Assembly (NCBI RefSeq): GCF_025979705.1
Contig: NZ_CP110136.1
Span: 62,001-126,000 of the forward strand
DNA: 64,000 bases
Direction: 5' to 3'
Source of the DNA: Hymenobacter sp. YIM 151858-1
GTDB taxonomy: Bacteria > Bacteroidota > Bacteroidia > Cytophagales > Hymenobacteraceae
A program made the position numbers and the translations under genes. Below are positions 1-64,000 of this stretch, in pieces. Under the pieces are notes generated by a model, which saw only the letters and a program-made list of their open reading frames with translations, was not told where the DNA came from and did not search any database. The first letter of the stretch is position 1; each line of letters opens with the position of its first letter.

Positions 1-192
1 AGCCTGGGTGCTACCGCGCCGAACGCCACGCTGGAGGTGTACACGGTAAACGGCATGTTTGTGCGCAAGCAGTCGTTTGGCGCCGCTGCCACCACCAAGC
101 TCAACGTGAGCACGCTACCCCAGGGCACGTACCTGCTGAAGGTGACTACCGCCACGGGCACGGTGCTGACAAGCCGTTTCGTGAAACACTAG
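1..192 (+). CDS. C-terminal end of a type IX secretion cargo protein (partial)
   Basis: The window opens inside a gene whose last 63 codons are read in frame 1 and stop at TAG 190-192. The end has the features of the type A T9SS sorting domain of Bacteroidota: a short beta-rich module with L-E-V-Y-...-G, a central LPQGTYLLKV strand, and a terminal S-R-F-V-K-H. In this family the C-terminal domain takes the exported protein through the outer membrane and is then cleaved or processed. The cargo itself lies outside the window, so its enzymatic or adhesive role is unknown. A strong terminator follows 30 bases downstream. The family assignment is good; the identity of the cargo is not knowable here. 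Confidence 0.8.
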   Translation, partial: SLGATAPNATLEVYTVNGMFVRKQSFGAAATTKLNVSTLPQGTYLLKVTTATGTVLTSRFVKH

Positions 193-222
193 GGTGGATG
201 GAATAACCTTTCATGAACGGCA

Positions 223-255
223 AACGCCGCTGCTCCCAGGAGCAGCGGCGTTTTT
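223..255 (+). terminator. Rho-independent terminator after the T9SS cargo gene
   Basis: Perfect 12-bp stem, AACGCCGCTGCT at 223-234 and AGCAGCGGCGTT at 241-252, with a 6-base loop and a run of T immediately after. It lies 30 bases past the stop codon. Confidence 0.85.
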
Positions 256-351
256 GCTTTATCACGGCTTAACATAGACTTAACTCCATATTTATTAAAG
301 CCGTAACTTAAGCTAGCCGGCCGCCCACATCCCGGTCGGCATACCGCACTT

Positions 352-600
352 ATGGCCAATTCGCAAAAAAAAGGCGCTACCAACCAAGACACCAACAACA
401 TCGGCGACCCGCTATTCAACCTTAAGCATGCTCAGGTAGAAGCAGAACTTCAGCAACAAACCGGCGGCCTCGGGCCGCTCACCAACGAATACATCAGCAC
501 CGACGAAGACGGCGAGCTGGACGAAGGCCCCCGCGACAGCCAGGGCCGCCGCCGCGGCGAACCCGGCATAGATTTGGGCAGCACGGCGGGCAAGCACTAG
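352..600 (+). CDS. Small acidic hypothetical protein, 82 residues
   Basis: An 82-residue protein starting at ATG 352. I recognise no domain. It is hydrophilic and probably disordered: a Lys/Asn/Gln-rich N-terminus, a Gln-rich middle (EAELQQQT), an acidic patch (STDEDGELDEG), then an Arg cluster and a Gly-rich end. It has no signal peptide or membrane segment, so it should be cytoplasmic. It sits alone between two terminators (223-255 and 631-670), which supports it being a separate transcription unit. The opposite strand is also open here (412-597), but that reading is Ala/Val-rich as expected of a shadow. Function unknown. Confidence 0.6.
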   Translation: MANSQKKGATNQDTNNIGDPLFNLKHAQVEAELQQQTGGLGPLTNEYISTDEDGELDEGPRDSQGRRRGEPGIDLGSTAGKH

Positions 601-630
601 TCCAGCCGATTCTTTGCTCCAGCACTAATG

Positions 631-36860: not shown

Positions 36861-36905
36861 CTTCAACTTGGATTGGTGCAGCTTTTGTTGCCCAAGTAGG
36901 CCAAT

Positions 36906-36937
36906 GAAAAAGCCCTGCCATGTAGGCAGGGCTTTTC
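36906..36937 (-). terminator. Terminator of the rpsF-rpsR-rplI operon
   Basis: GAAAAAGCCCTGCC (36906-36919) and GGCAGGGCTTTTC (36925-36937) form a stem with a 5-base loop; T residues follow on the minus strand. It lies 27 bases past the rplI stop codon. Confidence 0.82.
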
Positions 36938-36963
36938 TTTACACTAGCGCATGCGCGGGCAGC

Positions 36964-37407: not shown

Positions 37408-37437
37408 CTCGGTCAGTCGTCGTTAGGGGGTAGTGGA

Positions 37438-37689: not shown

Positions 37690-37690
37690 G

Positions 37691-38065
37691 TTACTGGGCT
37701 ACTGCTTCTGATTGTTTTGCTTTCTGCTGATTCAGCTCGCCCTTGCGACGACGCTCGTTGTAAGCAACGGCGTGCTTATCCAGAGCGGTAGTCAGGAAGC
37801 GGATTACGCGCTCATCGCGACGGAATGCCAGTTCCAGTGTATCTACCAGCGTAGGCTCGCTGGCAAATTCTACCAGGAAGTAATACCCGGTCGATTTTTT
37901 CTGAATCGGGTAGGCCAGCTTGCGCAAACCCCAGTTTTCCGAATTCAGGATGTCGGCGCCATTTTCCTTAAGCACCTGCGTGAACTTCTCGATCGTCTCT
38001 TGAACCTGCGCGTCGTTCAGCACGGGCGTCAGGATGAAGACGGTCTCATAGTTTCTGTTAGCCAT
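37691..38065 (-). CDS. rpsF: 30S ribosomal protein S6
   Basis: S6 pairs with S18 in the small subunit. The 124-residue product begins [18 protein letters not shown] and has the ferredoxin-like fold with the conserved [22 protein letters not shown] and [12 protein letters not shown] segments; the C-terminal tail is Lys/Gln-rich. ATG 38065 is the natural start; the frame runs 15 codons further upstream without homology. A -7 element TACCTTTG is at 38108-38115 on the minus strand. Confidence 0.97.
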
Positions 38066-38107
38066 TGCGGAACAGAGAAAAAGTAAGTGAGACGATGAAT
38101 GAGCCGG

Positions 38108-38115
38108 CAAAGGTA
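38108..38115 (-). promoter_or_regulatory. Possible rpsF -7 promoter element
   Basis: TACCTTTG read on the minus strand is a full match to TAnnTTTG, 43 bases upstream of the rpsF ATG. The best TTG is 23 bases further upstream, slightly outside the usual spacing, so the -33 element is uncertain. Confidence 0.4.
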
Positions 38116-38366
38116 AGACTTTTTCTCAATCAGCTTATCAATTACGATTGTTATTTGTTATTCAGCTCTAAGTAAACTAGTTGAGGATCAACTCTCAAAC
38201 CTTGTAAAACGTAGTCGGTTAATGAAGACACAGATGCCTTGGTACCTGGCTGAAGTTGTAAGTTTTGAGGGAGGCATTTCTACACCTATATATAATAAGG
38301 TGTGTGACAAGGCTTTTTAGAATGTTTCTAAGCAGTGCTGATAGGCCAAAATTTAGCAAACCCCGG

Positions 38367-38397
38367 TTTGTGGTCTGGCAATCGTGGGCTACATTTG
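38367..38397 (+). promoter_or_regulatory. Predicted promoter of the act-cox operon
   Basis: TTTG at 38367-38370, a 19-base spacer, then TACATTTG at 38390-38397: an exact match to the TTTG-N19-TAnnTTTG consensus. It lies 46 bases upstream of the actA start. Confidence 0.8.
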
Positions 38398-38443
38398 TGG
38401 CCCTAAAGCGCCCTGCTTTTACGTTTTTCCAGCACGTTTTGCA

Positions 38444-39775
38444 ATGAGTAGCTTCCGACTACGTCCCTTTTCACACTGGCTTCTTGCTCTGTTTCTGACG
38501 TTTACTGCGGTTGGCCAAGTGGCCGCGCAGGATAACGCGACAGTTAGCAAGGAGGGTGTGACCCCCGGCGCCACAGCCGGAGCCGCACCTGCGGCTGCAG
38601 CGGGCAGTGCCCCCGCTGGCGACGCTGCAGCCATTTCGGCTGGCGACGCCTTGTTCAAAGGTAACTGCGCACAATGCCACGCCATCAACGATGTGGTAGT
38701 TGGCCCCGCTCTAGCCGGTGTTGAGCAGCGTCGTCCGCTGCCATGGCTTATCAAGTGGGTTCAGAACTCCAGCAAGATGGTAGCCAGCGGCGACGAGTAC
38801 GCGGTGAAAATCTTCAACGAGTACCAGAAGCAACAGATGCCCAATTTCGCGCTGAGCGACGAGGAAATCACCTCGATCTTCGCCTACGTGAAAGCCGAGG
38901 CTTCCAAGCCTGCCAATGTAGCGGTAGGCGGTGATGACCGTGGCGCTGAGGGCAAGCCTTCCGGCGAAGTATCGGAAGGTGGCGCCGCTGGTGCCGGTAA
39001 GTATGTAAACGTCGTACTAATCGTACTGATCGTTGTCCTGATCGTTCTGGTTGTTACGCTGGTAATCATCGCCAATATCATGCGCGACGTGCTCCGCGGC
39101 CGCAAAGACCTCGACGGTCGTGACCTGGAGATGATCGACCAGAAAACCGACTGGATGGCCATTCTGAAATCCAGCTGGTTTAAAGGAGCAGTAGGCACAT
39201 TGTTCGTATTGGTTGTTCTGTATGAGTCGATTCAGGGCCTGATGGCAATTGGCTTACAGCAGGGCTACCAGCCTTCGCAACCTATCGCCTTCTCGCACAA
39301 ACTCCACGCTGGTGAGCACCAGATCAACTGCGCTTACTGCCACACTTCGGTGTACAAGAGCAAGTCGGCGAACATCCCTTCGGCGAACATCTGTATGAAC
39401 TGCCACTCGCAGATCAAAACGACTTCTCCCGAAATCAAGAAGATCTACCGCGCCATCCAGCGTAATCAGCCGATTCAGTGGGTTCGTGTTCACAACCTGC
39501 CCGACTTGGCTTACTTCAACCACTCGCAGCACACCCAGGTGGGGGGCATCGAGTGCCAAACTTGCCACGGCCCGATCCAGAATATGGATGTTGTGTATCA
39601 GTACTCGGCTCTAACCATGGGCTGGTGTATCAACTGCCACCGCGAAACGCCGCTTAACACTAAGGGCAACGGTTACTACGACAACCTAGTGAAGCTGCAC
39701 GACAAAGCAAATGCCGGTGCTCCGTTCACCGTGTCGTCGAACGGCGGCACCGAATGCTCGAAGTGCCACTACTAA
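38444..39775 (+). CDS. actA: Alternative complex III subunit ActA, six-heme cytochrome c
   Basis: ActA is the periplasmic multiheme cytochrome c of alternative complex III (quinol:electron acceptor oxidoreductase). The 443-residue product has a signal peptide (to about 29), an N-terminal class I cytochrome c domain with C75-x2-C78-H79 and a candidate Met ligand at 132, two hydrophobic segments near 188-214 and 246-270, then the five-heme domain with CxxCH at 296, 317, 371, 395 and 438. That makes six heme motifs in one chain, where the classical pentaheme subunit has five. It is the first gene of the act operon, behind a near-perfect promoter. Confidence 0.93.
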   Translation: MSSFRLRPFSHWLLALFLTFTAVGQVAAQDNATVSKEGVTPGATAGAAPAAAAGSAPAGDAAAISAGDALFKGNCAQCHAINDVVVGPALAGVEQRRPLPWLIKWVQNSSKMVASGDEYAVKIFNEYQKQQMPNFALSDEEITSIFAYVKAEASKPANVAVGGDDRGAEGKPSGEVSEGGAAGAGKYVNVVLIVLIVVLIVLVVTLVIIANIMRDVLRGRKDLDGRDLEMIDQKTDWMAILKSSWFKGAVGTLFVLVVLYESIQGLMAIGLQQGYQPSQPIAFSHKLHAGEHQINCAYCHTSVYKSKSANIPSANICMNCHSQIKTTSPEIKKIYRAIQRNQPIQWVRVHNLPDLAYFNHSQHTQVGGIECQTCHGPIQNMDVVYQYSALTMGWCINCHRETPLNTKGNGYYDNLVKLHDKANAGAPFTVSSNGGTECSKCHY

Positions 39776-39877
39776 TAATGAAAGTACTGAGCTAGGGTGC
39801 CGAGTAAGGAAGCAAGCGGTTCGCTACTTCATACTCGACGCCCTAACTCTCTGCCAAATACGACTACCCAACCCACG

Positions 39878-42800
39878 ATGCAAGAGTCGCCTAAGTACTG
39901 GAAGGGAATTGAGGAGCTCGAGAACTCGCCGGAGTTTTTGCACAACGCCCTGAGCGAATTCGGGACGTTGCCGGTGAAAGAAAGCCACCCCTCAACGGAT
40001 GATACGGTTGCACCGCGTCGCGACTTCCTGAAGCTGATGGGCTTTGGTCTGGCTGCCGCTACCTTGGCTAGCTGCGAAGCGCCCGTCCGCAAAGCCATTC
40101 CGTACCTGAACAAACCCGAGGAAGTAGACCCGGGTATCGCCAACTTCTACGCTTCGACCTATTTCAACGGTCAGGACTACAACAGCGTGCTGATCAAAAC
40201 GCGCGAAGGTCGTCCGATCAAGGTTGAAGGCAATCCGGAGTCGCCCGTTACGCGTGGTGGTTTGTCCGCTCGCGGCCAGGCGTCGTTGCTGAACCTTTAC
40301 GATCAGTCCCGTTTGCAGTCGTTTGCTATCAATGGCAAGCCTGCCGATAAGGATCAGGTCGATCAAGAGATTCGCACCAAGCTTGCTGGTGTTACTGGCC
40401 GCATTGCAATTGTTTCGCCTACTATCATTAGCCCCACAACCAAGCGGGTTATTGCTGAGTTTGCGGGTCGCTATGCCAACACCGAGCACGTTATGTACGA
40501 TGCAGTGTCGCAGTCGGCGCTGCTACGTGCAAACGGCGGTGTAGTTCCAGGTTTCGATTTCAGCAAAGCTGCTGTAATTGTAAGCTTGGCTGCCGACTTC
40601 CTGGGTACTTGGATTTCCCCCGTTGAGTATGCGTCGCAGTACATCGTAAACCGCAAGGTTTCTTCGTCTAAGAAGACGATGTCGCGTCACTTCCAGTTCG
40701 AGCCTAACATGACTCTAACCGGCGCCAACGCCGATGTTCGTGTAGCTGTTAAGCCTTCGGAGCTCAATCAGGTTGCGCTGGCGCTTTACAACGGAATCGT
40801 TGGTGGAGGTGCCGGTTCTTCCTACAAGAACCCTCAGCTCACTAAAGCTATCAACGAACTGAAGGCTGCCGGCAATCGGGCATTGGTAGTTTCTGGTTCC
40901 AACGATGTAGCTGTTCAGACCCTTGTAGCGGCTATTAATGCCGCCCTAGGTAATACTGGCACTACCATCAATCCTGCAACGCCTTCGTTCGTGCGTCAGG
41001 GTGATGATGCTCGCATGTCGCGTCTGGTCGCAGATATGAAAGCTGGCCGAGTAGGAGCTGTCATCTTCTACCACGCTAATCCCGCCTACGACCACCCGCT
41101 GGCTGCTGATGTAAAGCAAGCTCTGCAGAACAAAGGGCTGCTGAGCATTTCGTTCAACGAAAAGATGGACGAAACTACTTCGCTTTGCCAGTATCAATGC
41201 CCCGACCACAACTGGATGGAGTCGTGGAATGACTTCGAGCCTCGTCGTGGGTCACTGAGCTTGTCGCAACCGGTAATCACTCCGTTGTTCAAGACTCGTC
41301 AGGCTCAGGAAAGCTTGCTCGTTTGGGCTGGTAACCCTAACACTTATTATAACTACCTGCGCAACAACTGGCGCGGTGTCCTAGGTGGTAATTTCCAAGC
41401 CGGCTGGGATAAGGCCGTGCACGATGGGGTTGCCGCTGGAACGCTGAGCCCTGCACCAGTAGCCCAAGTAGCTCCTGCTGTTTCGGCTGATCAAGCTGCA
41501 GGTGAGGTTGCCGCTTCCAAAGCTGCTTCCGGTGTCGAGCTTGCTCTCTATGAAAAAGTGGGTGTTGGTAATGGCTCACATGCTAACAACCCTTGGCTTC
41601 AGGAGTTACCGGATCCGGTTTCCAAAGCCACTTGGGGTAACTACGTTACTGTTTCCCGTGCCATGGCCAAAGAGCAAGGGTGGGAGCAAGGCGATGTTAT
41701 CCGCGTGACAGCCAATGGTAAATCCGTAGAACTGCCGGTGCTGATCCAGCCGGGCCAAGCCCAAGGATCGGTTGGTATTGCAATCGGTTACGGTCGTGAG
41801 AAAGCCGGTAAAGTAGGCGACAAAGTTGGCGCTAATGCCTTCCCGCTTGCTCAGCTTCGCAATGGCGCTGTAGTGTACAATGTGCCCGTAACGCTCGAAA
41901 AAACCGACGCATCGCAGCCCATTGCTCAAACGCAGACGCACCACACCATCATGGACCGCAAGCCGGTGGTGCAAGAAGCTACGTTGGCTCAGTACATCAA
42001 GAATCCAAAAGCAGTAACCGAGTACGACAAAATTTCCACGCCGGAAGGTCTGGAGAAGCCGAACAAAGTATCGCTGTGGCAGGACTATGAGTACAAGAAC
42101 CACCACTGGGCAATGGCTATCGACCTCAACTCATGCATCGGCTGTGGCTCGTGCGTACTGGGTTGCCAGGTTGAGAACAACATCCCAGTTGTAGGTAAGC
42201 AAGAGGTAATTAACCGTCGCGAAATGCACTGGTTGCGTATCGACCGCTACTATAGCTCGGATACGCACAAAGACTCTTTCGAGACGGAAGGTAAGCTGGC
42301 TACCTACGCACTCATGGAAGATCCTTCGGATAACCCGCAGGTAATTTTCCAACCGATGCTGTGTCAGCACTGCAACCACGCTCCTTGCGAAACGGTGTGC
42401 CCGGTACTTGCCACTACCCACAGCACCGAGGGGTTGAACCAGATGACCTACAACCGTTGCGTAGGTACGCGTTACTGCGCCAACAACTGCCCATACAAGG
42501 TGCGCCGCTTTAACTGGTTCTCGTACTACTCCAACGAGAAGTTTGAGACCGTAAACGGTCACATGTTCACCGATCTGGGCCGCATGGTTCTGAACCCTGA
42601 TGTGACGGTACGTGCCCGGGGCGTAATCGAGAAGTGCTCTTTCTGCGTGCAGCGCATCCAGTTGGGCAAACTCGAAGCCAAGAAGGAAAAGCGTCGTCCC
42701 GTAGATGGTGAAGTGGTAACGGCCTGCGCTCAGTCTTGCCCAACCCAAGCCATCGTGTTCGGTGACCTTAAAGATCCGAACTCTCGCGTGGCGCAGATTT

Positions 42801-42958
42801 GGCGCCGCGAAGATGGCGAACGGGGCTTCAAAGTTCTCGACGCTATCAATACGCAGCCGAACATTACGTATCTGACGAAGATCCGTAACACGGACGTATC
42901 GAACTTCTTCGCGCCTGAAGCTGAACATGCAGCAAAGGCTGAGCCCCACAATGCGTAA
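39878..42958 (+). CDS. actB: Alternative complex III subunit ActB, iron-sulfur protein
   Basis: ActB is the large peripheral subunit that fuses a molybdopterin-oxidoreductase-like domain, which has lost the cofactor in this family, to an iron-sulfur domain. About 1026 residues: a twin-arginine-like motif RRDFLKLMG near residue 47 and a Cys soon after (LASCEAP) that may be lipidated; the oxidoreductase-like region from about 60 to 700; then a four-cluster ferredoxin domain with CIGCGSCVLGC near 752, CQHCNHAPCETVCP near 829, CVGTRYCANNCP near 861, CSFC near 920 and CAQSCPTQA near 950. Start chosen at ATG 39878. Codon use is less G/C-rich at third positions than in neighbouring regions. Confidence 0.95.
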   Translation: MQESPKYWKGIEELENSPEFLHNALSEFGTLPVKESHPSTDDTVAPRRDFLKLMGFGLAAATLASCEAPVRKAIPYLNKPEEVDPGIANFYASTYFNGQDYNSVLIKTREGRPIKVEGNPESPVTRGGLSARGQASLLNLYDQSRLQSFAINGKPADKDQVDQEIRTKLAGVTGRIAIVSPTIISPTTKRVIAEFAGRYANTEHVMYDAVSQSALLRANGGVVPGFDFSKAAVIVSLAADFLGTWISPVEYASQYIVNRKVSSSKKTMSRHFQFEPNMTLTGANADVRVAVKPSELNQVALALYNGIVGGGAGSSYKNPQLTKAINELKAAGNRALVVSGSNDVAVQTLVAAINAALGNTGTTINPATPSFVRQGDDARMSRLVADMKAGRVGAVIFYHANPAYDHPLAADVKQALQNKGLLSISFNEKMDETTSLCQYQCPDHNWMESWNDFEPRRGSLSLSQPVITPLFKTRQAQESLLVWAGNPNTYYNYLRNNWRGVLGGNFQAGWDKAVHDGVAAGTLSPAPVAQVAPAVSADQAAGEVAASKAASGVELALYEKVGVGNGSHANNPWLQELPDPVSKATWGNYVTVSRAMAKEQGWEQGDVIRVTANGKSVELPVLIQPGQAQGSVGIAIGYGREKAGKVGDKVGANAFPLAQLRNGAVVYNVPVTLEKTDASQPIAQTQTHHTIMDRKPVVQEATLAQYIKNPKAVTEYDKISTPEGLEKPNKVSLWQDYEYKNHHWAMAIDLNSCIGCGSCVLGCQVENNIPVVGKQEVINRREMHWLRIDRYYSSDTHKDSFETEGKLATYALMEDPSDNPQVIFQPMLCQHCNHAPCETVCPVLATTHSTEGLNQMTYNRCVGTRYCANNCPYKVRRFNWFSYYSNEKFETVNGHMFTDLGRMVLNPDVTVRARGVIEKCSFCVQRIQLGKLEAKKEKRRPVDGEVVTACAQSCPTQAIVFGDLKDPNSRVAQIWRREDGERGFKVLDAINTQPNITYLTKIRNTDVSNFFAPEAEHAAKAEPHNA

Positions 42959-42986
42959 GTCAACTCGAAACTAAATACTGATCAAT

Positions 42987-44441
42987 ATGCAGCACGTTTC
43001 GCCTGTACGTATACCGCTCGTAACGAGCGGTAAGACGTACCACGACGTCACCCAGGACGTGTGCCGCCAGGTGGAGGCCAAGCCGAACATCCGTTGGATG
43101 GCCGCGCTAGCCGTAGCCTTGTTCTTTCTGGGCATTTTCTTCTATTCCGTTTACCGTACGCTTTGGTACGGTATCGGTGAGTGGGGCCTGAACAAAACGG
43201 TTGACTGGGCTTGGGATATCACCAACTTCGTATGGTGGGTAGGTATTGGCCACGCTGGTACTCTGATTTCAGCTGTACTCTTGCTGTTCCGTCAGAAGTG
43301 GCGGACCTCGATCAACCGTGCGGCTGAGGCTATGACCATTTTCGCCGTAATCTGCGCTGCGATGTTCCCGGTTTTGCACATGGGCCGTCCTTGGCTGGCT
43401 TACTGGGTTCTACCTCTGCAAAACACTTGGGGCTCGTTGTGGGTGAACTTCAATTCGCCTTTGCTCTGGGACGTATTTGCTATTTCGACTTACTTCTCGG
43501 TTTCGCTGGTATTTTGGTATACCGGTCTCATCCCTGATTTCGCGACCATTCGTGACCGTGCAAAAGGTCCGATTGCTCGCCGTGCTTATGCGCTGCTCAG
43601 CTTCGGTTGGAAAGGTGGCGCCAAGCACTGGTCACGCTACGAAACGGTTTCGCTGATCCTTGCGGGTGTTTCTACCCCGCTGGTATTATCGGTGCACACC
43701 ATCGTATCAATGGACTTTGCTACTTCAGTAGTACCAGGATGGCACACTACCATCTTCCCGCCCTACTTCGTGGCGGGTGCTATCTTCTCGGGTTTCGCCA
43801 TGGTACTCACGCTGATGCTGATTACCCGCGTTGTGTTCCGCTTAGAAGACTACATCACGCTCGAGCACATCGCTCTCATGAATAAAATCATGATGATTAC
43901 GGGCTCTATCGTTGGTGTTGCTTACATCACGGAATTCTTCATTGCTTGGTACTCGCAGGTGGAATTTGAGCAGTATGCATTCATCAACCGTGCTACTGGT
44001 CCTTACTGGTGGGCGTACTGGTCGATGATGACTTGCAACGTGATTTCGCCGCAGCTGGTATGGATTCGTCGCATTCGCTACAGCATTCCCGCTACGTTCA
44101 TTCTGTCGATCATTGTGAACATTGGTATGTGGTTCGAGCGCTTCGTAATTATCGTTACGTCGTTGCACCGCGACTACCTCCCATCCAGCTGGGCAATGTT
44201 TTCGCCTTCGATCATTGACATCGGGATTTATGTAGGTACGCTGGGTTTATTCTTCACCCTGTTCCTACTCTTTGCTAAGTTTTTCCCTGTGATTAACATG
44301 GCTGAGGTTAAATCTATCCTCAAATACGGTGTGGACAACGGTCCGACTTATGGTGGTGCCAACACCGGCGCTCAACAGTCGAGCTACCGTCCGACCGGTG
44401 CTCCTGCTTCTGCTCCCGTAAACTACAACAAGCATGACTAA
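42987..44441 (+). CDS. actC: Alternative complex III subunit ActC, NrfD-like quinol-site membrane protein
   Basis: ActC is one of two NrfD/PsrC-like integral membrane subunits and carries the likely menaquinol site of alternative complex III. The 484-residue product has about ten transmembrane helices (for example [57 protein letters not shown] and [18 protein letters not shown]). The motif GHAGTLISA and [12 protein letters not shown] are typical of NrfD-like subunits. It overlaps actD by 8 bases, so translation is coupled. Confidence 0.95.
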
Positions 44442-44958
44442 GCGGTACGCGCTCGGCATCTTCGAAGATGAAGACGTGCTCTTGCACGCTATTGAAAACA
44501 TCCGCGCTGCCGGCGTAAAAATCTACGACGTTTTCTCGCCTTACCCCGTTCACGGCATCGATGATGCTTTGGGTATCGAACGCTCCCGTCTGCCGATTGC
44601 TGCGTTCTTCTATGGCTTGTGTGGCTTGTCGTTTGCTCTGTGGATGCAGATATACATGATGGGTTTCGACTGGCCAATGATCGTAGGCGGTAAACCCCAC
44701 ATTGGTCTGCCTGCCTTCATTCCGGTTGCTTTCGAGCTGACGGTTCTCTTCACGGCTCACGGCATGATGATTACCTTCTTCCTGATCAGCAAGCTCTGGC
44801 CACGTTGGCGCGTACCGGTTATGGACGTGCGTTCTACGGATGATAAGTTCGTCATGGCAATCGAGCTGAAAGAAGGAACCGATCTGGCTCAACTCACCCA
44901 GCTGCTGCGCAGCAATGGTGCTTCTGAGGTGAACGAGAAAGAAATGACCAAAGAATAA
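44434..44958 (+). CDS. actD: Alternative complex III subunit ActD (DUF3341)
   Basis: ActD is a small membrane subunit of the complex. The 174-residue product begins [17 protein letters not shown] with a ferredoxin-like cytoplasmic part (DUF3341), followed by two transmembrane helices ([20 protein letters not shown] and [20 protein letters not shown]) and a cytoplasmic C-terminus. It overlaps the end of actC by 8 bases, and its TAA overlaps the ATG of actE by one base (TAATG). The order actC-actD-actE is standard. Confidence 0.93.
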
Positions 44959-45683
44959 TGACGCACTTTGTAAAATATGGCGTCCAGGCTTCGGCCATTG
45001 TGTTCGCTTCGGTGCTGGTAACTGCTTGCAACGATGCCAACGATCCAGGCTTGGAGTATGCGCCTCAGATGTACGAGTCAATCCCGTACGAGCCGCTGAA
45101 ACAGTACGATGCTAATACGGTTAATCCGATGGGCATCAATATGCGTAACCCAGCTATTGCTACGGTTCCGCGTGGTAAGCTTGACTACTTCAACCATATC
45201 GGTAAAGACAGTGTAGGTATAGCTTCGCGCACTTTGCGTAATCCGCTTGCTTACAGCCGTCAAAACCTGGAAGAAGGCAAAGTCCTTTACACCAGAGTCT
45301 GCCAACACTGCCATGGCGAGCAGGGTGACGGCAATGGACCTGTAGGAGCTAAGTTTAAAGGCGTTCCCAACTATTCAGCTGGTGCTTACGCCAACATGAA
45401 CGATGCTCATATCTACCACGTGATTCAATGGGGTAAAGGACGTATGATGCCGCACGGCTCAATAGTCAACCCCGAAGAACGTTGGAAGATTGCGATGTAC
45501 GTGCGCGTACTGCAGAAAGGTAAAGGGCCGGAAGGCATGAGCGAGTTGGTACAAGACGAACTCACTCCTACGCAAAAAACCAATCCCGAAAATCAGGAGC
45601 CGTACGGTCAAGCTCAGGCTGACAAAGCTTCGGAAACCCCGGGCCAAGGTGGCACGGAAGCTCGTAACGGCACGGCAGAGTAA
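44958..45683 (+). CDS. actE: Alternative complex III subunit ActE, mono-heme cytochrome c lipoprotein
   Basis: ActE is a membrane-anchored mono-heme cytochrome c that carries electrons on from the complex. The 241-residue product has a lipobox (LVTAC, Cys at 24), then a class I cytochrome c with C115-x2-C118-H119 in RVCQHCHGEQGDGNGPVG and a candidate Met ligand in GRMMPHG. The C-terminal tail is hydrophilic and low in complexity. It overlaps actD by one base and precedes actF by 5 bases, so it is within the translational unit. Confidence 0.93.
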   Translation: MTHFVKYGVQASAIVFASVLVTACNDANDPGLEYAPQMYESIPYEPLKQYDANTVNPMGINMRNPAIATVPRGKLDYFNHIGKDSVGIASRTLRNPLAYSRQNLEEGKVLYTRVCQHCHGEQGDGNGPVGAKFKGVPNYSAGAYANMNDAHIYHVIQWGKGRMMPHGSIVNPEERWKIAMYVRVLQKGKGPEGMSELVQDELTPTQKTNPENQEPYGQAQADKASETPGQGGTEARNGTAE

Positions 45684-45688
45684 TCAAT

Positions 45689-47011
45689 ATGGCTTCAACG
45701 CATCATCACGAACCTGTAACGGCTGAGTTCCTCGAACTCTCGCCCGCTGCGCGCCGTCGGTTCATCCTGTTCATTGTTGCCGGGGTCGTGCTAATGGCCA
45801 TCGGTCTCATAATGGCTGCTATGAATGTGGGCGGCCACCACGAAGTTGCCGCTGCTGGTCATGGTGCCTCAGAGGGCGCTGGTGCATCAGTTGAGCATGG
45901 CGGCGATCATGCCCCTATCTGGCTACGTCGGCTATTTGTTAGCCTTTGGCAAAGCAATACCTACCTGATTGGTATTTCGGTTGTAGGAACTGTGTTCGTT
46001 GCCATCAACACGGTTGCTTACGCGGGCTGGTCGATCATCGTCCGCCGTATTGCTGAGGCCTTCAGCGCTTGGCTGCTGCCCGGTTTGGCAATTATGCTGA
46101 TCGTTTTCTTCGCCAGCGGTCATAACCTCTTCCACTGGCGTACTGAGGGCATCATGGATCCGACCTCGGAACATTATGATGCAATCATTGCTGGCAAGTC
46201 AGGTTTCCTGAATCTGCCGTTCTACTTAATCCGGATGGTGCTGTTTGTACTTATCTGGTGGTTCTTCTCGGAGCGTTTGCGTAAGCTTTCGCTAGAAGAA
46301 GACCAGCTTGGAGGTACAGGCTTTTGGGATAAGAGCATCAATGTATCAGCCTTGTTCCTGGTGCTGTTCGCAGTAACCTCTTCGATTGCAGCTTGGGACT
46401 GGGTTATGTCTATCGACACGCACTGGTTCTCAACAATGTTTGGTTGGTACGTGTTTGCTTCATGGTGGGTAGCGGGGATTGCTGCTATCCTACTAACGGC
46501 TATTTTCTTAAAGCAAGCAGGCTACTTGCGCTTCCTGAACTCTAACCACCTGCATGACCTAGGCAAGTTGATGTTTGGTTTCAGCATCTTCTGGACCTAT
46601 ATATGGTTCTCGCAATTCATGCTGATCTGGTATGCTAACCTGCCAGAAGAATCGGTTTACTTCAACCAGCGCTTAGGCGGGTTTAATGGGCAGTACACTT
46701 GGCTGTTTTTCTTCAACCTGATTATCAACTTCGCTTTCCCCTTCCTGGCTCTGATGACGCGCGATGCAAAACGCCAGATGATCATGTTGAAAATCGTTGC
46801 TATTGCCGTTTTGATCGGCCACTGGCTTGATTTCTACATGATGATTATGCCCGGAACGATGAAGGCCGACAGTGGGTTTATCATTGAGATTGGTACTGCG
46901 CTAGTATTCCTAGGTGCGTTCCTTCTGCTGATGACGAAACGTCTGTCACAGGCATCATTGATTCCTGTCAATCACCCCTTCGTAGAGGAGAGCGTACATC
47001 ACACAACCTAA
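45689..47011 (+). CDS. actF: Alternative complex III subunit ActF, second NrfD-like membrane subunit
   Basis: ActF is the second NrfD/PsrC-like subunit and forms a pseudo-symmetrical pair with ActC. The 440-residue product has about ten transmembrane helices (for example FILFIVAGVVLMAIGLIMA, SNTYLIGISVVGTVFVAINTV and GFSIFWTYIWFSQFMLIWYA) and a His/Gly-rich periplasmic loop near 49-75 (GGHHEVAAAGHGASEGAG). It is the last act gene, followed after 43 bases by coxB with no terminator, which supports a joint act-cox transcript. Confidence 0.94.
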   Translation: MASTHHHEPVTAEFLELSPAARRRFILFIVAGVVLMAIGLIMAAMNVGGHHEVAAAGHGASEGAGASVEHGGDHAPIWLRRLFVSLWQSNTYLIGISVVGTVFVAINTVAYAGWSIIVRRIAEAFSAWLLPGLAIMLIVFFASGHNLFHWRTEGIMDPTSEHYDAIIAGKSGFLNLPFYLIRMVLFVLIWWFFSERLRKLSLEEDQLGGTGFWDKSINVSALFLVLFAVTSSIAAWDWVMSIDTHWFSTMFGWYVFASWWVAGIAAILLTAIFLKQAGYLRFLNSNHLHDLGKLMFGFSIFWTYIWFSQFMLIWYANLPEESVYFNQRLGGFNGQYTWLFFFNLIINFAFPFLALMTRDAKRQMIMLKIVAIAVLIGHWLDFYMMIMPGTMKADSGFIIEIGTALVFLGAFLLLMTKRLSQASLIPVNHPFVEESVHHTT

Positions 47012-47054
47012 GCCCTGCGCGGTTCGGACCACTGACTTTCACAACGTACAACTA

Positions 47055-48122
47055 ATGATTGCTCTAGGTATCCTTCTGGCGCTGGTGCTCCTTCTGGTCG
47101 TGTTCGGCCTCTTGTTCCGGCTACAGATTCTGACTTCCATTTTCTCGGGCAGCTATAACCGGCCAGTAGGCCTCAGCAACCGGGTAAATGCCATCTTAAT
47201 GTTGTTATTCCTGATTGTAGGAGGCGCAGCATTTGCTTATTCGTTTGTCGACAACTTCGACAAAATGAATCCGCCGATTGCTTCGGTACACGGCATGCAT
47301 ACCGAGAAGCTTTTCTGGACCACAATGGTGGTTATCGGTATCGTATTCGTTATAACTCAAGTAGCGTTGTTTGTCTACTCTTATCGTTACCAGTATCGTG
47401 AAGGTCGTCGTGCGTTCTTTTTCTCGCACAACAACAAAATCGAGATTATCTGGACGGTAATCCCAGCGGTGGTTATGTCGGGCCTCATCTTTGGCGGCTG
47501 GAAAGAATGGACGAGCATTATGGGTCCTGCTCCAAAAGATGCCATTGAGGTAGAGGTAATGGGTAAGCAGTTCAACTTCCTTGTTCGTTACCCCGGTCGC
47601 GACCAAAAGCTCGGCAACATCAACTACCGTTTGATTGATGCTACCAACGAGTTTGGCTTCGATCTGAACGATCAGCGCGGAATGGACGATTTCACGGCTG
47701 GTGAGGTACACGTACCTAAAGGCCATCCGGTGCTGATGCGTATCCGTTCGCGCGACGTGTTGCACGCAGTGTACGCTCCCCACTTCCGTGTTCAGATGTA
47801 CGCCGTACCTGGCATGCCTACTAAGTTTTGGTTTACTCCTACCAAAACTACTGACGAAATGCGGGCTCAAACGGGTAACCCGAATTTCAACTACGAGATT
47901 GCCTGCAATCAGATCTGCGGTCGGGGTCACTTCGCAATGAAGGCCACCATTATCGTTGACGAGCCTGAAGATTACATTGCTTGGTATTCTCAGCAGAAGT
48001 CGTTCGTAGAGCAAAACCCAGATGTACTTGCCGATTTCAAACAGAAAAAGGCTGCCTCTGTTGAACAAGCACAAGCTGCTGTAGCGGTGCCCTCTACTGT
48101 TTCGGCTAAAGCCGCCCTCTAA
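47055..48122 (+). CDS. coxB: Cytochrome c oxidase subunit II
   Basis: Subunit II holds the dinuclear CuA centre that accepts electrons from cytochrome c. In this 355-residue protein the CuA ligands are H237 (VLHAVY), C284 and C288 (CNQICGRGH), H292 and M295. Four hydrophobic segments precede the cupredoxin domain (near 1-20, 45-64, 88-108 and 130-148), two more than the usual pair of helices. No fused cytochrome c domain is present, although adjacent actE and actA supply heme groups. It is 27 bases upstream of coxA. Confidence 0.95.
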   Translation: MIALGILLALVLLLVVFGLLFRLQILTSIFSGSYNRPVGLSNRVNAILMLLFLIVGGAAFAYSFVDNFDKMNPPIASVHGMHTEKLFWTTMVVIGIVFVITQVALFVYSYRYQYREGRRAFFFSHNNKIEIIWTVIPAVVMSGLIFGGWKEWTSIMGPAPKDAIEVEVMGKQFNFLVRYPGRDQKLGNINYRLIDATNEFGFDLNDQRGMDDFTAGEVHVPKGHPVLMRIRSRDVLHAVYAPHFRVQMYAVPGMPTKFWFTPTKTTDEMRAQTGNPNFNYEIACNQICGRGHFAMKATIIVDEPEDYIAWYSQQKSFVEQNPDVLADFKQKKAASVEQAQAAVAVPSTVSAKAAL

Positions 48123-48149
48123 CGAGTAACTATTAAGCAAGCTTTTCTG

Positions 48150-50003
48150 ATGGCTGCATCAAACATTCCGATGGGCTCGGCACCAACCAGCGCGCCGCAC
48201 ATCCAGCATCACGTAGCCGGCGACCACCACGACGAGCACCATGATGAAGGCAACTTCCTAACGAAGTATGTTTTCAGCACGGACCACAAGATGATTGCTA
48301 AGCAATTCCTGATTTCAGGTATTGCCTGGGCTTTTATCGGTGCCACGCTCTCCACGCTGTTCCGTATTCAGTTGGGTTGGCCCGATGCTCAGCTTACGTG
48401 GCTTGAGCCATTGCTGGGTCGTTGGGTAGAAGGAGGGAAGCTTAACCCCGAATTCTATCTGGCATTGGTTACCATGCACGGCACTATCATGGTGTTCTTC
48501 GTGCTAACTGCAGGTTTGAGCGGTACCTTCTCGAACTTCCTCATCCCACTGCAGATCGGTGCGCGTGATATGGCTTCGGGCTTTATGAACATGCTCTCGT
48601 TCTGGTTCTTCTTCCTGGCGGGTGTGGTAATGTTCGTTTCGCTGTTCCTCGAAACCGGGCCTGCAGCTGCTGGCTGGACGATCTATCCTCCGCTCAGTGC
48701 GTTGCCGCAAGCCATTCCTGGCTCAGGAGCTGGCCAAACCCTTTGGCTGGTTTCGATGGCTCTGTTCATTGTATCGCAGCTCCTAGGTGGTGTTAACTAC
48801 ATCACTACTGTAATCAACCTGCGTACTGCCGGTATGTCGATGGCTAAATTGCCGCTGACAATCTGGTCGTTCTTCCTGACTGCAATTCTGGGTCTGCTTT
48901 CTTTCCCGGTACTGTTCTCAGCTGCTCTGCTACTAATCTTTGACCGTTCTTTTGGCACTAGCTTCTTCCTCTCCGATATCTACATTGGTGGTGAAGCTCT
49001 GAACCATGTTGGCGGTAGCCCGATCCTGTTCCAGCACTTATTCTGGTTCCTAGGTCACCCGGAAGTTTACATTGTAATCATGCCGGCCATGGGTATTGTA
49101 TCAGAAGTAATGGCTACGAATGCTCGTAAGCCGATCTTCGGTTACCGTGCCATGATTGGTTCGCTGATCGGTATCTCGCTGTTGTCGTTCGTTGTGTGGG
49201 CTCACCACATGTTCGTAACGGGCATGAACCCCTTCCTGGGGTCGGTGTTTATGTTCCTGACGCTCATCATTGCAGTGCCTTCAGCAGTAAAAACCTTTAA
49301 CTGGTTGGCTACACTGTGGCGCGGTAACATCCGCTTTACTGCTGCTATGCTGTTTGCCATTGGCTTCGTTTCGCTATTCGTATCGGGTGGTCTGACGGGT
49401 ATCATCCTAGGCAACGCTGCACTCGACATCCAGATGCACAACACCTACTTCGTGGTGGCCCACTTCCACCTAGTAATGGGTAGCTCTGCATTCTTCGGTA
49501 TGTTCGCCGGTGTTTACCACTGGTTCCCGAAGATGTTTGGCCGCATGATGGACGAAAAGCTCGGCTACGTACACTTCTGGCTAACCATCCTGGCTGCTTA
49601 CTTGGTATTCCTGCCGATGCACTACGTTGGTATTGCTGGTTTCCCACGTCGCTACTACGCCTACACGGCGTACGAGACCTTCAACCAGTTTGCTGACCTG
49701 AACACGTTCATTTCGATAGCTGCAATCTTTGCTTTCTTCGCACAGTTTGTATTCCTGTTCAACTTCGTGTACAGCATCTTCCGCGGTCGTCGAGCTACCG
49801 AGAACCCGTGGAACTCGAATACGCTGGAATGGACTACGCCAGTGGTTCCTGGTCACGGCAACTGGCCTGGCGCAATTCCGGCAGTTTACCGCTGGCCTTA
49901 CGACTACAGCAAGCCCGGCGCAGAGCAGGACTTCATTCCTCAGAATATCCCGTACTCGCAGACTGTTTCTTCGAACCTGCCGTACGAGCGCGAAATGGAA
50001 TAA
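48150..50003 (+). CDS. coxA: Cytochrome c oxidase subunit I (caa3 type)
   Basis: Subunit I carries the low-spin heme and the heme a3-CuB centre where O2 is reduced and protons are pumped. The 617-residue product has a His-rich cytoplasmic start, then 12 or more helices. Metal-site motifs: GHPEVYIVIMPAMG (CuB His cross-linked to Tyr), WAHHMFVTGM (two CuB His) and HNTYFVVAHFHLVMG (heme a3 and heme a ligands), with the first low-spin heme ligand in LVTMHGTIMVF. A terminator 21 bases after the stop codon ends the act-cox unit. Confidence 0.97.
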   Translation: MAASNIPMGSAPTSAPHIQHHVAGDHHDEHHDEGNFLTKYVFSTDHKMIAKQFLISGIAWAFIGATLSTLFRIQLGWPDAQLTWLEPLLGRWVEGGKLNPEFYLALVTMHGTIMVFFVLTAGLSGTFSNFLIPLQIGARDMASGFMNMLSFWFFFLAGVVMFVSLFLETGPAAAGWTIYPPLSALPQAIPGSGAGQTLWLVSMALFIVSQLLGGVNYITTVINLRTAGMSMAKLPLTIWSFFLTAILGLLSFPVLFSAALLLIFDRSFGTSFFLSDIYIGGEALNHVGGSPILFQHLFWFLGHPEVYIVIMPAMGIVSEVMATNARKPIFGYRAMIGSLIGISLLSFVVWAHHMFVTGMNPFLGSVFMFLTLIIAVPSAVKTFNWLATLWRGNIRFTAAMLFAIGFVSLFVSGGLTGIILGNAALDIQMHNTYFVVAHFHLVMGSSAFFGMFAGVYHWFPKMFGRMMDEKLGYVHFWLTILAAYLVFLPMHYVGIAGFPRRYYAYTAYETFNQFADLNTFISIAAIFAFFAQFVFLFNFVYSIFRGRRATENPWNSNTLEWTTPVVPGHGNWPGAIPAVYRWPYDYSKPGAEQDFIPQNIPYSQTVSSNLPYEREME

Positions 50004-55452: not shown

Positions 55453-55607
55453 TACTTTGCTTGTGGTGGCCCCTAGGTGCCATTATGCGCCTGGCCTGCC
55501 GAAGCGCGCAGTTACCTAGGGCAAAGTGTGGCCCAGGTGGCCGGCGTCCTGCCGGAAAAACTCACCTAGGGCTAACCAACAACGTTGAGTCATCGAGTGC
55601 TTTGCAC

Positions 55608-55637
55608 GCAAATGCCGCCTACTGGCGGCATTTTTGC
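55608..55637 (+). terminator. Terminator after the oxidase-assembly group
   Basis: GCAAATGCCGCC (55608-55619), loop TACT, GGCGGCATTTTTGC (55624-55637): an 8- to 12-bp stem with T5. It lies 155 bases after the small CxxC gene and before the large kinase gene; the interval 55453-55607 otherwise contains three CCTAGG copies and no gene. Confidence 0.72.
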
Positions 55638-55702
55638 TTACTAGCCCGCCGAATCCTAGGTAAGTTTCTAATCTTGCCACGGTTATACCCAGAACTTCTT
55701 TA

Positions 55703-62600: not shown

Positions 62601-63210
62601 ATTCGGGGCCGAGCTGACGGTGCTGCAGAATCAGCAGAAAACGCTGCTCACCACCGGCACCGATACGCGCAACCTAGCCAGCCAAAGCATGCTGCTGCGC
62701 CGCACCTTGGCGCAATCGTTTACCTCGCGCCTCACGGCCACGCGCAGCATCCGCGAAAACAGCAGCACCTACCTGCTCACGCGCAACTTCCGCATCCGGC
62801 AGTACGAGGTGGCGCCCGAGCTAAGCTACCAGCCCTCGGGCACATGGCGCTTCACGGGCACCTACCAGCACACCACCAAGGAAAACGTGTTCGGCCCCGA
62901 AACCGGCGCCCGCGGTGCTTTCGATGAGTTGGGGGTTGAAACGCGCATCAGCCAGGTAAACAAGCGCACCGTTACGGCTGCCAGCCGCTACGTGCGCGTG
63001 GCCTACAGCGGCGACCAAGCTTCCGAAGCCTCCGTGGTGGGCCTCGAAATACTGCAGGCCCTGCGCCCCGGCAACAACGTAACCTGGACGATAAACCTGG
63101 AGCAGCGCCTCAGCAACGGCCTCAACATCACCATCAGCTACGACGGCCGCAAACCCGATGGCCTGCGCAGCATTCACACCGGGCGCATGCAGGCCTCGGT
63201 GCTGTTTTGA
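59611..63210 (+). CDS. Large outer-membrane beta-barrel protein
   Basis: A 1199-residue exported protein with a signal peptide (LLLALLAGSVWARAQ, to about residue 27). The N-terminal 150 residues form a soluble domain; from about 175 on it has the alternating polar/aromatic strands of a big barrel and the run GNLTRGVSFGNAQNVFVNSA, followed by LQLEGKLTEKIGLTAAISDQ, QPEGNTQQLQEFDRIY and LTAGDVVLRN. Those motifs resemble the Bacteroidota SprA-type conserved regions (GLT-A-ISD, PEGNTQQLQEFD), but the protein is half the length of SprA, so I call it a paralogue-like family member. The last residue is Phe, the usual barrel end. Start at ATG 59611. Function unknown. Confidence 0.68.
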   Translation: MLPLIRCYLRCFLLLALLAGSVWARAQQRPEVMSSRRCVWVRVPANRDTTEFRLTDSLTVVPSSVSVSVPGRAVAYDRTTDRYRILWPSSRIAAPEPNEPDLRLPTNRPDSVLVCYRVLPMRLGAPVARRPREQMDTISFNNRPFMGYAGLGQQEQILATPGINKTGNLTRGVSFGNAQNVFVNSALNLQLEGKLTEKIGLTAAISDQNVPFQPEGNTQQLQEFDRIYITLTHPNWALTAGDVVLRNKPDYFLRFYKNVQGAAAEAQFQQRPGWRSSTNVAAGVAKGKFASTTVDPIENVQGPYRLRGPNGEQFIIILANSERVYLDGRLLVRGFDNDYVIDYNTAELTFSPRHLITRNSRIRVDYEYSDFNYARSLYHLSHYQEAGRLQLHANYYREADNPDNSPNLTLDDDDRDFLRRLPDNVSIAATPGADSATYDRRQVQYNRVRYRDPATGEQRWIFELLTDSTRSVYNVRFTDVGEGNADYVLSTDPEKTNANGRVYEYVPPIGGVPRGRYRPERLLPTPLEKQLISAGATLRVDSTTSVFVDVASSDLDLNRFSPQSDKGHSMRVGYAVQDKPLALPGLRNYRLRSSMDYEYTSRRFSPIDRYRDIEFDRNWSTGATQQSNAIGGRLSREDNIFNFAVGATKDLNNHFGYRVSRRYRAGEVSGVQHWLEAAQRVGDVELRSSLFLLGAEAGRRRSSWTRGEGVVRYTRGPVVPGYAYRFDKNRVALPSGDSLSSANYFDEHAVFVQSQDSARTKYRLDYTYRRDRAPNAEQTALQLRGTAQTWQGQLTTRIGQNQDLSLLATYRDLLARDSARQRTALGQLAWNASLLQGQVRSELTYNVATGREPKRDYVFIPVPAGQQGQGTHYYAGDLNNNGRQDKEEFLEAATPDAVFRTHIKVFLFTDTYVTAFTNRFGYRLLLGAPRAWREGRGWQAVAARFSNVSSINLDRRTTDKSLSARLNPFAYQTNDEQLLSLNKLLRNTLYFNRSNPVFGAELTVLQNQQKTLLTTGTDTRNLASQSMLLRRTLAQSFTSRLTATRSIRENSSTYLLTRNFRIRQYEVAPELSYQPSGTWRFTGTYQHTTKENVFGPETGARGAFDELGVETRISQVNKRTVTAASRYVRVAYSGDQASEASVVGLEILQALRPGNNVTWTINLEQRLSNGLNITISYDGRKPDGLRSIHTGRMQASVLF

Positions 63211-63230
63211 AAAACTTACTTCCTAGGTGC

Positions 63231-63848
63231 TCAGTAGCGCCAGTAACTTGGGCGTCGTACTGCCGGCTGCTTGCCTACTTTCTTGGTGATGTCGCGCTGC
63301 TTAAAGCAGAAATCGAACGGGTGACCGGTGCGCAGGGCGCGCAGCGTTAGCTCGGCGCAGGCCAGGGCGTCGGAAAGGCTGTCGTGGTGGTTTAGCTCGA
63401 TGCCGAAATGGGCCGACAGCTCGCTCAGCTTGCTGCGCCCGATGTGCGGAAAAGCCTCCTTGCACAGCTTAATCGAGCACATGCTGAAGAACTCGGGCAT
63501 GGGCAGCTGGTGCGTGGCCAGGCTATGCTGCAGCACGCTTACATCGAAAGAGGCATTGTGCGCCACTACCAACTGGCCCTGCATATAATGCTCGATGGCG
63601 GGCCACAGCTGCAGCAACGTAGCGGCGGGGCGCAGCTGCTCGGCCGAAATGCGATGAATGCTGTAGTTGATGCCCGACACGCGCAGCTCGGGCGGCCGGA
63701 TGAGGTGCTGCTCGCGCGCCACGATGTTGCCGCCGCGCACCTGCACAATGCCAATGGAGCAGGCGCTGTCGCGCTTCTCGTACGCCGTCTCGAAGTCGAT
63801 GGCGGTGAAGTTGAGCTCCTGGAGGTCCTGGAGGAGGCGTTTCTGCAT
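63231..63848 (-). CDS. DEDDh 3'-5' exonuclease (DnaQ-like)
   Basis: A 205-residue exonuclease of the DnaQ/epsilon superfamily. Catalytic motifs: ExoI AIDFET (D18, E20), ExoII VAHNASFDVSVL, and ExoIII HDSLSDALACAEL with His and Asp of the DEDDh type. Residues 40-75 match the typical epsilon-like segment REQHLIRPPELRVSGINYSIHRIS. Length is about that of polymerase III epsilon-like proofreaders and of stand-alone exonucleases; it could process DNA or RNA ends. It is convergent with the barrel gene, 20 bases apart, with no clear terminator. Confidence 0.9.
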   Translation of the reverse strand: MQKRLLQDLQELNFTAIDFETAYEKRDSACSIGIVQVRGGNIVAREQHLIRPPELRVSGINYSIHRISAEQLRPAATLLQLWPAIEHYMQGQLVVAHNASFDVSVLQHSLATHQLPMPEFFSMCSIKLCKEAFPHIGRSKLSELSAHFGIELNHHDSLSDALACAELTLRALRTGHPFDFCFKQRDITKKVGKQPAVRRPSYWRY

Positions 63849-63937
63849 GGCCGCGCGGTAAACTGGGTGGTAAATGATGCCTCGGGGCTAGGCCCGAAAA
63901 ACGGCATGCAATTACGCACTCTGTGGCCGCAACAGCC

Positions 63938-64000
63938 CTAGGGCAGCGGCGCTTTTTGGCCGGCAGCTACCGTGGGCCGCGGCCGCACCAAGGTGTAGAG
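63938..64000 (-). CDS. Possible C-terminal end of a gene entering from the right (uncertain)
   Basis: On the minus strand the last 63 bases stay open (20 codons, Pro/Ala/Arg-rich) and end at a TAG (63938-63940). Twenty open codons in GC-rich DNA occur easily by chance, so this is only a possibility; no domain is recognised. Confidence 0.2.
   Translation of the reverse strand, partial: LYTLVRPRPTVAAGQKAPLP

Follow-up and report, generated by a model that had tools for sequence, protein, structure and literature searches.

CCTAGG is the core of a driven, asymmetric and dialect-forming DNA word in a clade of Hymenobacter, possibly a self-DNA signal of uptake-sequence type

Uptake signal sequences are a known feature of the Pasteurellaceae, and very-short-patch repair, which acts for CCWGG and on T:G mismatches only, is a known case of a word whose frequency is driven by repair. 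In the present work we examine the hexamer CCTAGG in a stretch of 64,000 nucleotides from Hymenobacter sp. YIM 151858-1 (the window; bases 62,001-126,000 of contig 1 of the three contigs of a 4.62 Mb genome, hereafter G000), where it is iterated in a way that recalls several described systems. In the Neisseriaceae, DNA uptake sequences (DUS) form eight dialects that share a CTG core and reach up to 5918 copies (PMC3630211, in part). In the Pasteurellaceae, gradual drive has operated through one-mismatch intermediates (PMC1939737, in part). The highly iterated palindromes (HIPs) of cyanobacteria, HIP1 and its alternates, occur about once per kb and are replaced by other words in some lineages (PMC4390886, in part).

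The Hymenobacter word resembles each of these in some features and differs in others. As with the DUS, there are thousands of copies, dialects consistent with phylogeny and a core of three bases, here CTA on one strand; however, the host belongs to the Bacteroidota, the word is shorter and not found in every species, and a prepilin appears to be missing where a ComP would be expected. The word and the phylum also differ from those of the Pasteurellaceae. It departs from the HIPs in being asymmetric in the window's clade, whose carriers have no methyltransferase of five searched families in common, and from very-short-patch repair in that transversions are driven too. We are nearly certain that this is a driven, asymmetric, dialect-forming word; what reads it is a matter of weighing alternatives.

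The original prediction counted about 85 copies of CCTAGG by hand against some 21 expected. The exact figures agree: the window (GC 59.0%) holds 85, where composition predicts 20.3, and CCTAGG tops all 64 palindromic hexamers for observed over expected by composition. Markov models of order 1, 2 and 3 expect 12.5, 9.0 and 13.7. A fourth-order model, the yardstick proposed at the time, expects 66.2 (observed/expected 1.28), which is formally near the ratio of about 1 at which the excess was to be given up; however, this model cannot judge CCTAGG because its 5-mers mostly are the hexamer itself (85 of the 92 CCTAG and 85 of the 95 CTAGG 5-mers), and the over-representation stands. In the whole of G000, CCTAGG occurs 5325 times and its reversed word, GGATCC, 75 times, although the latter is itself rare there, so that composition is the fairer yardstick. 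GGATCC also numbers only 0-20 in many genomes of genus g5. The avoidance expected of the restriction site of a resident restriction-modification system is not seen, CCTAGG being in strong excess in both window and genome. GCCTAGGC is named as under-represented in E. coli in part of PMC1939737, and the tetramer CTAG is strongly depleted in two tiles from relatives poor in CCTAGG, with 17 per 20 kb in L107 (genome G006) and 8 in L110 (genome G001) against 68 and 63 expected.

Within genes, which follow our own codon-score calls, the window uses CTA for 53 of 80 Leu CTN codons in the context C-CTN-GG (hyphens mark codon boundaries), against 22/516, 3/59 and 72/1115 in other contexts; equal use of CTA outside GG contexts, named beforehand as evidence to the contrary, is thus not observed. 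The same bias extends over 586 kb of G000, with 407/781 in C-CTN-GG, 165/4916 in C-CTN-nonGG, and 35/561 and 420/8793 in other contexts, and AGG takes 16 of 21 Arg codons after CCT compared with 87 of 3530 after non-CC codons. The frame NNC-CTA-GGN does prevail in coding copies, as had been claimed (C-CTA-GG 52 vs CCT-AGG 6 in the window, 119 vs 15 over 186 kb). Whereas the window has 59 coding copies (overlapping genes may double a site), 200 synonymous shuffles give a mean of 4.7 and a maximum of 11. The word was also said to occur both between and within genes, and indeed 58 sites lie wholly within genes while 26 copies are intergenic in 6.2 kb of the window. Wholly intergenic copies in G000 number 72 in 25.8 kb, or 2.79/kb against 0.31 expected, with 4.30/kb between convergent, 2.72/kb between tandem and 1.51/kb between divergent genes. 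The context bias of CTA, the intergenic excess, the shuffles and, as described below, the conversion of any ancestral base therefore uphold the view that selection or drive targets the DNA word and not codon or protein.

The driven unit is an asymmetric word of about 8 bp centred on CCTAGG, ACCTAGG/CCTAGGT, the best forms being ACCTAGGG/CCCTAGGT and the next ACCTAGGC/GCCTAGGT. At C-CTN-GG codons of G000, CTA is used in 75/85 cases with flanks A..G and in 147/181 with the complement C..T (ACCTAGGG/CCCTAGGT together 222/266), in 65/123 and 47/85 with the partial flanks A..C and G..T, and in 7/115, the background level, in the palindromic context G..C (GCCTAGGC). A two-orientation logo of 716 sites in G000 is likewise asymmetric: 409 are ACCTAGGG/CCCTAGGT, 188 ACCTAGGC/GCCTAGGT, 54 ACCTAGGA/TCCTAGGT, 9 ACCTAGGT, and 56 have neither flank. 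The odds of CTA over those in C-CTN-nonGG are about 31 overall (ln 3.4) and about 145 with the best flank (ln 5.0). The flank table and the logo do not bear out the palindrome that the original prediction took as the unit; the extended forms CCTAGGTGCC and CCTAGGGC, which it had called frequent, are the two sides of the true asymmetric one. A palindromic unit, which characterises the HIPs, is thus lacking in G000; in some other lineages the best word is palindromic (G101 and G200 with A..T, G080 with C..G). Complementary flanks give matching values, so the drive is equally strong in both orientations to the gene and an RNA-level motif, which we considered as a cause, is ruled out.

Among the eight genomes of the window's genus, G000, G005 and G007 hold 5325, 5678 and 6212 copies of CCTAGG and the other five 123-249 (220 in G006). 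The high trio forms one clade (support 100/100 and, in a second tree, 100/99) with the low G006 as its sister (83/79; 100/99); within the genus, the driven CCTAGG word is confined to this one clade of three species. Across 200 genomes of the family, these eight included, six more exceed 5500 (G080, G101, G159, G200, G202 with 5585, and G206), four hold 1209-2331 (G184, G185, G193, G194) and the other 187 hold 54-888. The share of CTA in C-CTN-GG is 135/201 in G005, 74/96 in G007, 85/148 in G080, 56/68 in G101, 97/112 in G159, 46/58 in G200 and 116/138 in G206, compared with 4/124 in G006 and 4/212 in the low genomes G001-G004 pooled. Outside this context, CTA in these genomes stands at 0.06-0.24, except in x-CTN-GG of G159 (23/79), G101 (33/89) and G200 (56/103); the raised values of G101 and G200 fit their AGCTAGG word. 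Intergenic density within the clade is 1.8-2.8/kb, and the intergenic rates of G101, G159 and G200 are probably underestimates, since their coding fractions are low (0.65, 0.74 and 0.64).

Comparison between relatives shows how copies were gained and kept. With G006 as ancestor proxy, 30 of 397 one-mismatch words became CCTAGG in G000, which is rank 1 of 4048 words (median 1.7%); the rank is also 1 for G005 and G007, and 2 and 3 with G001 and G002 as proxy, whereas between low genomes the gain is 0/199 and 1/189, near the bottom of the ranking. Where the flank is right in the derived genome, synonymous CTC, CTG and CTT codons of G006 became CTA in 32/49, 22/34 and 8/8 cases, compared with 54/1089, 240/3592 and 17/291 elsewhere (species pairs are pooled and not independent). 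Taking G001-G004 as proxy, the right-flank values are 78/109, 87/105 and a low 2/7. Sites without the A/T flank also gained CTA, but less often (CTC 2/7 and CTG 5/13 from G006; 9/28 and 15/27 from G001-G004). Between the sisters G005 and G000, over 503 kb aligned, conversion to CTA was 49/73 and 13/34 for CTG, and 5/12 and 1/11 for CTC, which are small numbers. Once there, CTA in the motif was kept between sisters in 228/282 and 228/244 cases against 117/606 and 117/388 for other CTA, and CCTAGG was conserved at 443/601 sites, where the mean hexamer reaches 51%, six near-cognates 31-48% and CCATGG 65%. Because conversion occurs from any ancestral base, by transversion as well as by transition, and the sites then persist, the cause is a fixation drive and not codon choice; deamination or any other single type of mutation is ruled out on the same ground. 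The word has spread over the chromosome by this drive, such that most protein-neutral sites spell it and then keep it.

In the window, 75 of the 85 sites have the A/T flank (ACCTAGG/CCTAGGT) and none is ACCTAGGT. Sites are listed by window position, those with the flank by the start of the hexamer.

1295, 1370, 4660, 5150, 5387, 7320, 8091, 8448, 9304, 10486, 10987, 12269, 13425, 14530, 16408, 18102, 21021, 21384, 23357, 28206, 29947, 32564, 33371, 34976, 35619, 40945, 41380, 46909, 48782, 49049, 51088, 52155, 52407, 54216, 55472, 55655, 56323, 59356, 59976, 60060, 62082, 63222; + strand; CCTAGGT on the + strand, 42 sites.
1006, 2809, 3684, 5453, 5594, 6500, 8268, 8520, 9638, 9727, 12695, 13800, 14735, 15554, 16123, 18765, 20977, 22267, 23764, 25576, 26351, 28186, 30163, 31357, 32032, 32629, 36519, 46558, 55515, 55565, 60001, 61147, 62395; - strand; ACCTAGG on the + strand, which is CCTAGGT on the - strand, 33 sites.
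681, 1895, 4963, 12488, 19780, 33665, 34780, 49406, 56947, 63937; no strand; CCTAGG without the A/T flank, 10 copies.
55453-55702; no strand; intergenic stretch by our own gene calls, with four sites (55472 +, 55515 -, 55565 -, 55655 +).
36600-48800; no strand; thin stretch over the act-cox region, 5 sites, 0.41/kb.

A thinner spacing inside act-cox had been noticed before and is confirmed, with 5 sites in 36.6-48.8 kb (0.41/kb) vs 1.61 and 1.38/kb on the flanking sides; our guess is that codon choice is perhaps constrained there in highly expressed genes. The protein encoded at 39797-42958 in the act region matches TIGR04519, a TAT-variant-translocated molybdopterin oxidoreductase, as well as 4Fe-4S models, and we take it, with the original prediction, to be ActB. 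Its closest match among named records is from Hymenobacter sp. CRA2, at 87%.

Other Hymenobacter lineages drive related words, namely CCCTAGG, A[CG]CTAG[GC]T, TAGGCCA, CTACCCC and GCTAGCC. Flank rules differ accordingly: G080 drives C..G (38/48) and C..C (21/30) but not A..C (3/16), G101 and G200 drive A..T (28/28 and 18/18), and G159 and G206 are broad. A word scan against synonymous shuffles finds CTAGGCC in G193 at 77 vs 9.9 in genes and 66 vs 2.8 between genes, and TAGGCCA at 106 vs 20.8 and 66 vs 2.6; G184 is similar and G185 weaker, while G202 has ACCTAGG and AGCTAGG. We considered G184, G185 and G193 as half-way CCTAGG genomes but dropped this idea, TAGGCCA being driven there and CCTAGG probably a by-product; G194 was sampled over 20 kb only. 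Among 28 loci of named Hymenobacter, most of 23 kb, CTACCCC passes the shuffle test in L026 (H. profundi), L030 (sp. UV11), L037 (H. ginkgonis) and L041 (H. citatus), GCTAGCC/CTAGCCC in L032 and weakly in L038 (L035, a near twin of L038, fails), the TAGGCCA word in L025, and CCTAGG words in L039 and L040; L042 passes one word barely (TAGGCCA, 6 vs a shuffle maximum of 5), and 17 of the 28 show no listed word above the synonymous shuffle. In L022 (H. roseosalivarius) the only word to pass is GCCCCCC, with 14 in genes vs 1.6 by synonymous shuffle, which may be a dialect word or, being a run of C, only a C-run effect. GATC is almost absent (0-4 per locus) from L030, L031, L032, L034, L036, L037, L039 and L040, other Hymenobacter loci having 19-54.

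Placed on a tree of the ActB gene (42 rows, 20 labelled with a dialect; the 22 unlabelled rows lie outside the change count), the dialect labels require 6 changes, the minimum, compared with a mean of 13.3 when shuffled and with no shuffle in 200 as low. Each of the five dialects with at least two rows, other than CTACCCC, forms one clade among labelled rows; CTACCCC lies on more than one branch, with 4 changes, including the doubtful L024, whose label came from raw counts and which did not pass the later shuffle test. In the low relatives G001-G004 and G006 there is no word of comparable strength, the nearest being CATTCCG, possibly a weak further driven word in G001 and G004. In genes it is about 5-fold over synonymous shuffle (22 vs 4.8 in L110-L112 of G001, 25 vs 4.6 in L116-L118 of G004); between genes it numbers 2 vs 0.8 in G001 and 4 vs 1.0 in G004, and 0.87/kb in the pooled lows. 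Other candidates were rejected: CATTGCC and TCGCGCA (L107-L120 and other stretches) are in excess, but chiefly in a single codon phase, and AGGGCAA, though not tied to a phase, shows no enrichment in intergenic DNA.

The word is scarce on small contigs. The first 20 kb of G000 contigs C2 and C3 (plasmid-like by size and separation, not typed) hold 2 and 0 copies of CCTAGG, contigs C2-C4 of G005 (20, 20 and 11 kb) hold 1, 0 and 1, and CTA in C-CTN-GG on small contigs is 0/32 and 1/41 vs 29/51 on two chromosome tiles. In the chromosome, at L140 (G000 contig 1, 3.00-3.02 Mb), the four copies occupy 193-2484, next to pheS, and none follows in the 17 kb after the start of an integrase gene at 3074. 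Given this rarity on small contigs and island, the word appears to mark long residence. The element beside pheS (L140:2500-20000 and L014) carries the integrase and a Schlafen/AlbA-type protein, with an exonuclease VIII-like protein and a C5 DNA methyltransferase just beyond.

We propose that the word labels self-DNA, as uptake sequences do. In this view a DNA-binding receptor would prefer DNA bearing the word of its own lineage; imported conspecific DNA would recombine into the chromosome through the ComEC channel and RecA, and this biased import would multiply the word. A change in receptor specificity would give rise to dialects, and loss of the receptor to motif-free species. What makes the word uptake-sequence-like is that the bias is blind to the type of mutation, concerns one asymmetric word, spares recent arrivals and is re-spelled between lineages. 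In common with the DUS it has thousands of chromosomal copies in both orientations, is non-palindromic in G000 and has dialects consistent with phylogeny. We give uptake-type drive a probability of about 0.42. The wider claim, that Hymenobacter carries a family of self signals of the DNA-uptake kind, the first in Bacteroidota, with at least six related dialects that have CTA on one strand, switched several times within one genus-level group and read by a receptor other than a type IV pilin, each lineage exchanging genes mainly with its own kind, is more tentative and must be called doubtful.

Several observations weigh against this proposal. The precedent of DNA uptake, already raised in the original prediction, gives the best fit, but no type IV prepilin was found: PF07963 matched in 0 of 26 genomes (controls matched in 8/14), which is why we do not file the word as a DUS. 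No receptor gene was found, and as far as searched it is not a canonical type IV prepilin. ComEC is present in 26/26 genomes, motif-free ones too, and so does not discriminate. The word has 7-8 bp, fewer than the DUS 10-mers, and the near saturation of contexts in two genomes (28/28, 18/18) exceeds what a rule of one site per imported fragment needs. Sites are unevenly spread, with only 6 in a 20-kb tile of G202 against 5585 in that genome, and in a smaller sister set the conservation of CCTAGG ranks 33 of 1407 words, high but not extreme. Near sites exclude each other in G000 (47/128 under 100 bp against 0.47 expected, p 0.002; under 200 bp, 0/500 simulations), but only weakly in the other seven genomes pooled (p 0.27 under 100 bp and 0.067 under 200 bp). 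The sharing of CTA, present in one strand of the dialect words (TAGGCCA read as TGGCCTA), may be due to chance, and the literature matches listed include no report of competence in Hymenobacter. A PilB/PilT-type Walker pattern had no match in the DNA scanned, a result that is uninformative because this DNA covered only parts of genomes.

Some published observations favour the proposal. Riemerella columbina, also of the Bacteroidota, prefers its own DNA in transformation, by a motif described as unknown in part of PMC7965970; there raw k-mers were counted in three species, with A-rich and T-rich words in R. columbina and their function left open. The same source, in part, reports PilB, PilC and PilQ homologues but no PilA in Flavobacterium johnsoniae, so a divergent fibre is possible. 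We found no paper in the open-access literature pairing Hymenobacter with CCTAGG or a methylome, and, among the literature matches listed, none whose title or opening lines of abstract describe a motif of this kind in Bacteroidota.

An alternative without any uptake is sequence-directed biased repair or gene conversion, in which an endonuclease or repair factor resolves near-motif mismatches towards the motif and dialects follow changes in enzyme specificity. The near saturation of permitted sites does look site-autonomous, and gains come from near-miss words while losses are rare. Yet transitions and transversions are raised alike (CTG to CTA 22/34, CTC to CTA 32/49), where repair of the T:G type, modelled on very-short-patch repair, would raise transitions above all; the small contigs of these cells show almost none of the drive (0/32, 1/41), though they may be recent arrivals; and no candidate enzyme was found, Vsr not having been searched for. 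We regard this explanation as unlikely.

Distinctly unlikely, in our judgement, is that the sites bind a chromosome-structuring protein, at about one per 0.7-1.3 kb, with dialects following changes in its DNA-binding domain. Such a protein would suit a word that, in the sampled stretches, hardly occurs off the chromosome, is densest in convergent intergenic DNA (4.30/kb) and has near sites that exclude each other in G000. However, it would need nearly neutral selection on more than 5000 sites, the word is patchily present among close species, there is no strong orientation pattern, and the exclusion is not clearly replicated.

A mechanism like that modelled for the HIPs in part of PMC4390886 would have a DNA methyltransferase recognise the word and methyl-directed mismatch repair ratchet it up. 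The same source finds, in each cyanobacterial genome where some sequence is highly over-represented, a putative methyltransferase that could methylate it, and a density near one per kb is shared with the HIPs. Intergenic density in the clade nevertheless goes beyond this, at 1.8-2.8/kb, and G000, G005 and G007 have no methyltransferase in common in PF01555, PF00145, PF02086, PF07669 and PF02384, the families searched. G007 lacks PF00145, PF02086, PF07669 and PF02384, and G005 lacks PF01555, PF00145 and PF02086; G005 and G000 both have a weak PF07669 match below cut-off, and low genomes, too, have matches of similar profile range and frame length (not aligned). The HIP1/methylase precedent of the original prediction is weakened by the lack of a common gene in these five families, and we consider it improbable. 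A missing enzyme is not fatal to it, as some HIP1-rich genomes are without a CGATCG enzyme (PMC4390886, in part). Across the five families G007 has a single methyltransferase match, a 297-aa PF01555 protein encoded on the 12.5-kb contig L001 (G007 contig 4).

The orientation of sites bears on motifs tied to recombination or replication. In G000 there is a slight excess (355 vs 296 over 586 kb; +93/-76 on eight tiles), and TAGGCCA in G185 is balanced (+56/-55 on six tiles). Spacing in G000 is only slightly more even than random (median gap 623 vs 565). Chi is a recombination hotspot and KOPS a replication-oriented motif, and either would be over-represented, asymmetric, lineage-specific and rare on small contigs, as this word is; but the tiles examined (origin not located) show neither a strong skew nor one that switches, and the word is nearly absent from the sister species G006 (220 copies). 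A replication-oriented role is accordingly not supported in these stretches, and a Chi-like or KOPS-like motif is very improbable. An artefact of codon, dipeptide or composition, which the dominance of the Leu-Gly frame in genes might have suggested, is refuted by the window's intergenic copies (26 in 6.2 kb), the enrichment of CTA only in C-CTN-GG in G000 and a synonymous-shuffle maximum of 11 vs 59.

With thousands of copies in one small clade and new spellings in its neighbours, the word offers natural replicates for how such motifs start, spread and change. CTA and AGG codon use in these species is not to be read as translational selection. If biased repair were the cause, it would add a new force to those that shape genome sequence and codon usage. 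If instead the word is an uptake signal, it could explain the self-preference of Bacteroidota in transformation, as described for Riemerella columbina in part of PMC7965970, and would point to a DNA receptor that is not a pilin.

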